32,061 bases of DNA from Candidatus Nomurabacteria bacterium (lineage in GTDB: Bacteria > Patescibacteriota > Minisyncoccia > Phycocordibacterales > UBA2100). Under the pieces are notes generated by a model. The model was not told the origin of the DNA and made no database searches. It saw only the letters and a list, made by a program, of their open reading frames with translations. This document shows positions 1,489-7,442 of the stretch, in pieces. The position numbers and the translations under genes are program-made. How positions within the stretch are numbered: position 1 is the first letter of the stretch; every line of letters starts with the position of its first letter. Where the stretch lies: NCBI GenBank assembly GCA_943356775.1, contig CALRFU010000010.1:1-32061 (forward strand), read 5' to 3'.

Positions 1489-1569
1489 GTTTCGGGCACG
1501 AACGAGCACGTTCGGGCCGCCGCGAGGCGCACGAGGAGTTTCGGGCACGCATGAGCACATGCGGGCCGC
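1489..1569. repeat. Tandem pair of hairpin units with compensatory stem changes
   Basis: Two units share the frame GTTTCGGGCA - 6-bp stem - AGCA loop - stem - GGCCGC. In unit 1 (1489-1520) the stem is CGAACG/CGTTCG; in unit 2 (1538-1569) it is CGCATG/CATGCG. Flanks and loop are identical while the middle stem bases differ on both sides and still pair. That pattern is expected if the folded structure, not the primary sequence, is kept. Both units are followed by ACGAGGAGT-like sequence (about 1531-1539 and 1570-1578). What it does is unknown: an RNA element, a protein-binding cruciform or a REP-like mobile palindrome are all possible. Confidence 0.65.
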
Positions 1570-4564: not shown

Positions 4565-7075
4565 TTATTCTTTGGCAATTTGCCACTCGCCGCTCGCAAG
4601 CAAAGGCTCTGCTTTCTTAAATTTCATCTCACGTCGCTCAGTACCATTCGTGATTGTTACCTTATCATTGCGACCGTGTCCGGTATTCGAAGGCACCCCC
4701 GAAGGTGCAGAAATCGTCCGTACCGCCTTGTGGATAACCTGCTCGGCTTTCGGTGCCCGTACTCCCCCCGTGGTCATGTTCGGCAGCACATTTGCAACCT
4801 GCGCCATATACGAATTCTCCATCGTCTGAAATAGTTTGAGGCCTTCTTTTTTGTACTCAACAAGCGGGTCACGTTGACCATATGCGCGAAGATTCACCGA
4901 GTTGCGGAGATACTCCATCGCCTCCAAATGTTCTACCCAAAGAAAATCTACTGTTTGCAAAAGGAATCGCCGCGTCATTGGATAGAACCCGTCTCCCAAT
5001 TCTTTTTTCTTCGATTCAATCATCTCTGCGAATCCTTCGTTCGATTCTGCAATACGCGTGAGCTCTTCGTCTATCGCGGAAATATCCCCGGTGAGGAGCG
5101 CACGACGACGCGTGTATATGCTTTGGCGTTGGATATTGAGAACGTCGTCGTACGAGAGTACGTGTTTGCGTGCATCAAAATTTAACTCTTCGATGCGCGT
5201 TTGCGCCTTCTCGAGCGCACGCGTTATCATCGAATTATAAATAGGCTCATCCTCGGGAATCTTAAACGTGCCCATGACACGCTTGATGACATCTGAGGCA
5301 AAGACACGCATGAGTGAATCCTCGAGCGAGACGAAAAACTGCGTCTCCCCTGGGTCTCCCTGTCGCCCGCTTCTTCCTCGCAGCTGATTGTCTATGCGAC
5401 GTGCTTCATGGCGCTCGGTGCCCAAGAGGAAGAGTCCGCCAGTCTTTTTTACTTCTTCAGACGCCTCATCACTCCCCGGATTCCCACCGAGCTTGATGTC
5501 GACACCGCGACCAGCCATGTTGGTCGCGATGGTGACGCCCCCCCTCTTCCCTGCCTGTGCGATGATTTCACCTTCTCGTTCGTGATTCTTCGCATTCAAT
5601 ATTTCGTGCGGGATTCCTTCCTGTTTAAAATGCGCTGAGAGGATTTCATTCTTCTCGACGGATACGGTACCGACCAAGACAGGCTGCCCTTTCTCATGCA
5701 ATTCGCGCACATGCCGCGCAATGGCCTTCATTTTTCCAGATTCGCTTTGGAAGATAAGGTCCTCGTGGTCTTTTCGCACCGCTACTTTGTTGGTCGGGAC
5801 GACGACGGTATTGAGCCCATAGACCTTGTAAAACTCCTCTGAGGAGGTCACCGCTGTACCTGTCATGCCCGCAAGTTTTTTATATAGACGGAAGTAATTC
5901 TGGAAAGTAATCGAAGCAAACGTTCTCGATTCTTGCTGCATCTCTACCCCCTCTTTTGATTCGATCGCTTGATGCAAGCCTTCAGACCAGCGTCTGCCCG
6001 GTTGTAAGCGGCCGGTAAACTCATCCACGATAACAATTGCGCCATCCTTCACGACATATTCCTTATCCCGCGCAAAAAGCGCCTTGGCACGGACGGCAGT
6101 CTCCAGGTGGTGCACGTACTTGATACCCGCATCGGTATAGATATTCTCAACACCGAGCGCACGCTGCGCCTTCTCGATGCCGCTATCGGTCAAGGATATT
6201 TGCTTGTGCTTGTGCTCAACCTCATAGTCTTCGTCTTGTATGAGCGACGCTGCTATCTGAGTGAAGCGTCCGTAGAGGGATTCAGCGTCGGAAACGGGAG
6301 CAGAAATGATGAGCGGCGTACGGGCTTCATCGATGAGGATGGAGTCTATCTCGTCGACGATAGCAAAGTGATAGGTATGCTGTCGTAAATTCCCTGATTC
6401 GTATTCCAGATTATCGCGCAGATAGTCGAAGCCGAATTCGTTGTTGGTACCGTAGGTGATATCAGCGGCATACGCCTCCCGTCTCGTACAAGGCCTGAGA
6501 AAATCCTGCATGACCTTGAATGCGCCCATCGTATCCCTTTCCGCATCCTCCTGCGCCAAAACTTCAGAGGACATGTGCGTGGGGTCATAGATGAATGATG
6601 CTTCGTGATTAATGATGCCCACCGAGAGCCCGAGCGCGTAGTAAATCTCGCCCATCCAGACTGCGTCGCGTCGCGAGAGGTAGTCGTTGACGGTAACAAT
6701 GTGCACGCCCTTCCCCGAAAGTGCGTTGAGGTACGCGGGGAGAGTCGCGACGAGAGTCTTTCCTTCTCCGGTGCGCATCTCGGCAATATCGCCGCGATGA
6801 AGTATCATGCCTCCTATAAGCTGAACGTCGAAATGTCTCTGACCCAAGGTACGCCGCGACGCCTCCCGCACCGCAGCAAAGGCTTCCGGGGCAATCTCAT
6901 CCAAGGTGGCACCCTCAAGAAGCCGCCCCTTGAATTCAGCGGTCTTTTCTTTCAGCGCCAGGTCGGAGAGCGCTTTCATTCCCTCCTCCTGCGCATTGGT
7001 GACCGCAACGATAGGCTCGGCGGCCCGTAGAGCTGCGAGATTCTCATCCCCAAATAGCCTCTTCCAAAATGTCAT
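4565..7075 (-). CDS. secA: Preprotein translocase motor ATPase SecA
   Basis: SecA drives unfolded preproteins through SecYEG at the inner face of the membrane using ATP. The product has Walker A MRTGEGKT (about 100-107), the DEAD-type VDEIDSILIDEARTPLIISA, the preprotein cross-linking domain, motif MAGRGVDIKLGGNPG, QLRGRSGRQGDPG, and the helical scaffold with FLWVEHLEAMEYLRN. It is 836 residues long. The usual C-terminal cysteine-rich zinc motif that binds SecB is missing; the protein ends in EWQIAKE. That is common in lineages without SecB. ATG at 7075 gives the normal SecA N-terminus, with a possible AGGA ribosome site 8 bases upstream. It is flanked by terminators on both sides, so it is probably transcribed alone. 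Confidence 0.97.
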   Translation of the reverse strand: MTFWKRLFGDENLAALRAAEPIVAVTNAQEEGMKALSDLALKEKTAEFKGRLLEGATLDEIAPEAFAAVREASRRTLGQRHFDVQLIGGMILHRGDIAEMRTGEGKTLVATLPAYLNALSGKGVHIVTVNDYLSRRDAVWMGEIYYALGLSVGIINHEASFIYDPTHMSSEVLAQEDAERDTMGAFKVMQDFLRPCTRREAYAADITYGTNNEFGFDYLRDNLEYESGNLRQHTYHFAIVDEIDSILIDEARTPLIISAPVSDAESLYGRFTQIAASLIQDEDYEVEHKHKQISLTDSGIEKAQRALGVENIYTDAGIKYVHHLETAVRAKALFARDKEYVVKDGAIVIVDEFTGRLQPGRRWSEGLHQAIESKEGVEMQQESRTFASITFQNYFRLYKKLAGMTGTAVTSSEEFYKVYGLNTVVVPTNKVAVRKDHEDLIFQSESGKMKAIARHVRELHEKGQPVLVGTVSVEKNEILSAHFKQEGIPHEILNAKNHEREGEIIAQAGKRGGVTIATNMAGRGVDIKLGGNPGSDEASEEVKKTGGLFLLGTERHEARRIDNQLRGRSGRQGDPGETQFFVSLEDSLMRVFASDVIKRVMGTFKIPEDEPIYNSMITRALEKAQTRIEELNFDARKHVLSYDDVLNIQRQSIYTRRRALLTGDISAIDEELTRIAESNEGFAEMIESKKKELGDGFYPMTRRFLLQTVDFLWVEHLEAMEYLRNSVNLRAYGQRDPLVEYKKEGLKLFQTMENSYMAQVANVLPNMTTGGVRAPKAEQVIHKAVRTISAPSGVPSNTGHGRNDKVTITNGTERREMKFKKAEPLLASGEWQIAKE

Positions 7076-7250: not shown

Positions 7251-7442
7251 ATAAATATTTTTTGTTTGAGTGTTAAGCTCGACCCGCACTTGCGCAGTGA
7301 TGCGAAGGTGCGATTACTATTTCATTATTGCACTCAAGCGCTCACACATCACAAACATCGCAGAGGAATGTGGATAACTTTTCTTTTGTTTTCTTCGAAG
7401 TGTCGACAAAAAAATCTAGAGAAAAAAATATTGTACGCTCAG

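Follow-up and report, generated by a model that had tools for sequence, protein, structure and literature searches.

A five-helix intergenic repeat family in Candidatus Kaiserbacteria, probably a non-autonomous mobile element

Architecture of the element in the window

The window (the whole stretch of 32,061 nt that was analysed, contig CALRFU010000010.1) begins with two neighbouring minus-strand genes, complement(2-1345) and complement(1816-2808). The protein encoded by each matches the helix-turn-helix family HTH_17, the match in complement(2-1345) being just under the curated cut-off, and both appear by eye to contain a hydrophobic, possibly membrane-spanning stretch. The intergenic stretch between them (1345-1815) folds far better than its shuffles, with z of about -7 on either strand. 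Here the original prediction placed two hairpin units with identical flanks, an AGCA loop and different 6-bp stems that nevertheless pair. These are present letter for letter: both 32-nt units (1489-1520 and 1538-1569, spaced 49 nt) carry the described flanks and loop, and their differing 6-bp stems are perfect. While the hairpins are real, the units were drawn too short, each of them being P5 and one P1 strand of an element with five helices.

The full element 1 occupies 1429-1521 on the plus strand, about 92 nt. It is supported by its fold, by 88.2 bits with the covariance model R2 and by 100.2 bits with R1, a model built from three copies of which this sequence is itself one. The element proper begins at about 1432 with CGA, the equivalent of TGA. 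Helix P1 closes a four-way junction with P2, P3 and P4, in which nearly every base is paired, and hairpin P5 follows. According to the alignment, the 5´ strand of P1, CGAAAC (1432-1437, plus), pairs with 1489-1494. The sequence there, GTTTCG, which opens what had been taken for a conserved flank, is the 3´ strand of P1 on the plus strand, as pair counts and the fold indicate. P2 (1438-1449) is a hairpin CGCC-GCGA-GGCG with a GNGA tetraloop, P3 (1450-1458) a mini-hairpin CCC-GTA-GGG with a GNA triloop, and P4 (1460-1487) a long hairpin; all three lie on the plus strand and are backed by pair counts and the alignment, P4 by the fold as well. P5 (1496-1517, plus), with the core CGAACG-AGCA-CGTTCG, is the hairpin of the first predicted unit and shows two-sided changes in 8 of its 8 pairs.

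Across the copies, the consensus of P1 is TGANNC for the 5´ strand and GNNTCA for the 3´ strand. The P2 loop is a GNGA tetraloop or GAAGA, P3 is a short hairpin with a C(GNA)G triloop in some copies and longer in others, and the AGYA loop hairpin of P5 is usually followed by GGCC(A). In most copies P4 contains tandem G.A pairs (CGA/GAG) and a conserved G.T wobble; that of element 1 is mostly Watson-Crick.

By reading of the sequence, a truncated tandem copy of element 1 lies at 1518-1569 on the same strand. It consists of a P2 copy (1518-1529), ACGAGGA, the 3´ strand of P1 (1538-1543) and P5 (1545-1566), the last being the second predicted unit. Directly after it comes a further plus-strand remnant, ACGAGGAGTCA (1570-1580). 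Element 2, a diverged and shorter variant, is found on the minus strand at 1609-1686 (R1 38.3 bits, E=2.9e-5; R2 38.4 bits). The 5´ end of element 1 is abutted by a box, TGTGGATAA (1422-1430, plus), which reads TTATCCACA on the minus strand.

Distribution, covariation and the folding strand

A free-stem pattern allowing up to 3 mismatches has three matches in the 811-kb genome, and its reversed control has none. Besides the two units it hits C6:25331-25362 on the minus strand, where the stem CGCGCC/GGCGCG is again perfect, different and paired. The similarity between this locus and the window reaches about 60 nt further 5´, GAACACGCCTGAAGAAGGCGCCCGTAGGGGCCGAATGTCGGCTACTGCCGATATGAGGCTGTTC against GAAACCGCCGCGAGGCGCCCGTAGGGGCATCATGTCGGCTAATGTCGACATGATGAGTTTC, and the conserved flank GTTTC is therefore one strand of a helix. 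That helix, P1, co-varies (GAAAC/GTTTC against GAACA/TGTTC). The core GGCGCCCGTAGGGG gave two further copies; a short pattern, GAGGAGTTTCGGGC, was dropped, its matches being mainly chance ones in coding sequence.

In its own 811-kb genome, R1 has ten strong matches; eight copies there have E<=2.1e-8, and diverged ones come in addition. Of the 52 genomes covered in the genus Candidatus Kaiserbacteria, 7 carry the family, with 2-11 copies per carrier, about 39 in total and E values as low as 1e-20. Among 146 relatives searched with R1, copies occur in this genus only and in none of the other genera sampled. R2 agrees: across 379 genomes of the phylum, and with a tight first-look filter, it detects the same genus only, so we reject a broad distribution. 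A pattern scan of named genomes returned 11 contig stretches of Candidatus Kaiserbacteria, one MAG of an unclassified bacterium and one Ruegeria halocynthiae; in the last (contig NZ_FNNP01000002.1) a single exact match to the 21-base core pattern may represent chance or a distant copy. A viral origin was rejected, the exact core pattern having zero matches in viral contigs. When the window and five loci with other copies were compared with Rfam, none exceeded the gathering threshold and only sub-threshold chance matches were seen; nor was anything like it described for these bacteria in the open-access literature that was searched. The five-helix repeat family is thus absent from Rfam, and within the same literature scope no description of it was found.

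The original prediction anticipated further copies with compensatory changes in relatives, and the seven carrier genomes supply them. In an alignment fitted to the structure, 97.5% of cells are paired. Two-sided change affects 27 of the 32 pairs, 5 of the 6 in P1 among them, and amounts to 161 cells; none of 500 shuffles matched the pair count. This alignment having been fitted to structure, the cells were counted again on a MAFFT alignment blind to structure. There, 1086 of 1126 cells (96%) are paired and 162 are two-sided, against 7-9 when partners are slid by one base, which bears out the claim of selection on folding. A compensatory step can also be seen between orthologous copies behind the same upstream gene, GAACA/TGTTC in one genome (L032, G000) and GACCA/TGGTC in another (L053, G011).

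The same MAFFT alignment points to the strand that folds. Leaving out one conserved G.T pair, G.T outnumbers A.C by 23 to 8. The tandem G.A pairs would become T.C if the opposite strand folded, and the GNA and GNGA loops exist on the modelled strand only. Given the G.T excess and the G.A tandems, the modelled strand is likely the folded one. Outside the conserved pair, G.U/G.T is rare (23 of 1091, about 2%). C(GNA)G triloops form unusually stable DNA mini-hairpins, and GNA mini-hairpins are used in aptamer work. The triloops together with the scarcity of G.U/G.T lean towards DNA as the folding molecule, short of proof.

Genomic sites, the adjacent box and candidate enzymes

The copies sit between genes, as judged with neighbours called by a simple coding model, and their orientation is unbiased: 14 have both neighbours co-directional and 11 have both opposite. 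Orientation even switches at one and the same site. Between pilC and the pilin gene the element is sense in G003, G037 and G020 and antisense in G000, and the site is empty in G011, G033, G002, G006 and other relatives. At a second pilin-like site it is sense in G000 and G011 and antisense in G003, G037 and G036, and at the MVRTANPALLKP site different species likewise carry it in opposite orientations. Some of the shared sites could hold ancestral copies altered by inversion or conversion. Two near-identical copies (95.9% over 97 aligned nt), one behind groEL in G037 and the other behind an unrelated gene in G011, have their few differences at the outermost bases. Elements are nested within elements at four loci (L051, L059, L062, L030), and remnants of the 3´ half are common, also beside full copies in relatives. 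In two species lacking the element (L131 in G021, L134 in G045), the interval from the pilC stop codon to the box holds unrelated long hairpins.

At least 10 copies start a few nt past the stop codon of an upstream same-strand gene, and the element's own TGA often doubles as that stop codon. Often the 5´ end adjoins the box TGTGGATAA instead, which is no more than 45 nt away in 13 of 36 copies (0.8% background, p=1e-18), and AA[GC] stands directly 5´ of 10 of 28 non-nested copies (2.8%, p=3e-9); the box background takes in coding DNA and is lenient, and both p-values are optimistic, as orthologous copies were not collapsed. No signal of target-site duplications above shuffles was detected around the copies, as expected of HUH elements.

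The box has a life of its own. A TATCCACA-like box precedes a -10 hexamer by 35-38 nt in the pilC-pilin regions of 19 of the 24 species read, and box plus spaced -10 motif occurs 51 times in 52 genomes against 3 for the reversed control. The box is therefore associated with promoters and occurs also where the element is absent. In the window, CAGAAT (1391-1386, minus) is 38 nt from the 1422-1430 box. The DnaA-box consensus TTATCCACA is present in the window at 1422-1430, 2851-2859, 4729-4737 and 7369-7377, and also in the pilC-pilin regions (L109-L137). No element accompanies the box at 2851-2859, which lies between gatB and the following gene; in G003 and G037 that intergenic region contains an element. 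In many Kaiserbacteria TTATCCACA keeps a fixed distance of 35-38 nt to the -10 hexamer downstream of it in the pilin promoter, and is possibly the site of a DnaA-like activator.

RAYT-type Y1 transposase genes occur in 45 of the genus's 52 genomes, with as many as 16 in one genome (for example G000:C1:160808, C1:69346 and C5:29884, with many relatives). The Y1_Tnp genes read in the carriers have short flanking inverted repeats of their own, such as GGTGTCAGGAACC ... GGTTCCTGACACC, and no single ortholog cluster is common to all seven carriers. The element model has no match at any of the 28 Y1_Tnp loci in these seven genomes, 86 kb of sequence altogether, and on this ground we reject the REPtron hypothesis. 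RAYT proteins with a DnaA-like C-terminal domain exist (PMC6006769), and such a protein was considered as the source of the box preference; it was rejected, three scanned RAYTs being Y1_Tnp only.

Origin of the element and its relation to known systems

In our view the hairpins are probably parts of a mobile element of about 92 nt, non-autonomous and specific to its lineage, which inhabits a subset of Candidatus Kaiserbacteria and moves as a folded single strand. Its copies fold, co-vary, are dispersed, switch orientation and nest in one another. From this we infer mobilisation of the folded strand in trans by an HUH-type enzyme. The moving form would most likely be ssDNA; the presumed enzyme (Y1/RAYT-like or related) would recognise the fold, cut and join ssDNA in trans, and attach the 5´ end behind a short target resembling AAG or AAC. 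The fold would then be kept because copies unable to form it are not mobilised, and effects on nearby transcription, such as insulation of promoters from read-through or stabilisation of mRNA 3´ ends, would be secondary. More tentatively, the element might represent a miniature mobile element of a new type. Its substrate would be a compact single-stranded four-way junction plus hairpin, and a so far unrecognised enzyme would join its 5´ end next to stop codons or to promoter boxes that resemble DnaA boxes.

Covariation of this great strength, the GNGA tetraloops, the strand-specific wobble and the tandem G.A pairs would also suit a new structured RNA class, an mRNA 3´-UTR or 5´-UTR element or a small RNA that is multi-copy by happenstance, and the copies just past same-strand stop codons would indeed be transcribed. 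We nevertheless regard this as unlikely. No conserved promoter precedes the element, the stop-codon copies have coding sequence upstream, G.U is rare and no Rfam family exists. Orientation to the neighbours is unbiased and flips between species at one site. Among the three guesses offered by the original prediction, a REP-like mobile element fits best; a cis-acting RNA motif is less favoured, since the element has no conserved orientation to neighbouring genes.

The element recurs in the gap from a stop codon to the box that precedes the next promoter, where G021 and G045 have their unrelated hairpins. This would also suit hairpin clusters, of DNA or RNA, that are recruited as terminators, promoter insulators or protectors of mRNA 3´ ends, with the sites under selection. 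Such a reading is rather improbable: many species have nothing at the site, no consistent T-run follows the element, and downstream of several copies there is a terminator-like hairpin distinct from the element. Strand-specific details and near-identical copies at unrelated sites would be left unexplained. The second unit is a local partial tandem copy, yet chance or simple duplication in a GC-rich spacer as the whole explanation has a negligible probability, refuted by the distribution of the covariance-model copies over seven genomes.

Genomes of Patescibacteria are tiny and streamlined, and a persistent moving element with a detailed strand-specific fold is unexpected there. The alignment supplies the fold, the element ends and the target context, all open to biochemistry. 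Judging by its preferred sites (pilus genes, groEL, promoter boxes), the element could influence how host-dependent bacteria regulate their surface machinery.

Large structured intergenic repeats of about 100-150 nt, whose secondary structure is conserved and which are presumably mobilised in trans, are represented by bcr1, BOX and ERIC. By their general description they are alike in being intergenic and structured, but have a different fold and belong to a different phylum. A classical TIR-type MITE has terminal inverted repeats and target-site duplication, whereas P1 leaves the ends of the Kaiserbacteria element unpaired, with P5 outside, and a duplication signal is missing. CGTC-tagged REPs and Rickettsia RPE (PMC3733652) are likewise palindromic repeats without an adjacent dedicated transposase despite genomic RAYTs. 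The CGTC-tagged REPs are, however, single stem-loops of 20-40 bp with an unpaired CGTC, in contrast to 92 nt, five helices and no tag.

Closest in character are REPINs and REP-BIMEs, mobilised by the Y1 transposase RAYT (TnpA_REP; PMC3116915, PMC2817692, PMC6006769). Both they and the Kaiserbacteria element are short, dispersed, non-autonomous intergenic palindromic units with mosaic and inverted arrangements and compensatory hairpin changes, and RAYT-type genes are common in the genus. Like a REPIN, the Kaiserbacteria element is dispersed and non-autonomous and keeps its structure by compensatory change. REPINs, on the other hand, are inverted pairs of REPs, while a four-way junction and a 3´ hairpin make up a single 92-nt unit here. 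The REPIN 5´ foot is GT[AG]G (GTAG/GTGG); that of the Kaiserbacteria element is TGA/CGA, and its P5 is preceded by P1 strands of the GTGTCA, GGGTCA or GGTTCA type. About 10 or fewer copies are present per genome, and none lies beside any RAYT examined. On the best reading, the Kaiserbacteria element thus departs from REPINs and REPtrons in RAYT proximity and in its 5´ foot, yet is REPIN- or MITE-like in its workings.
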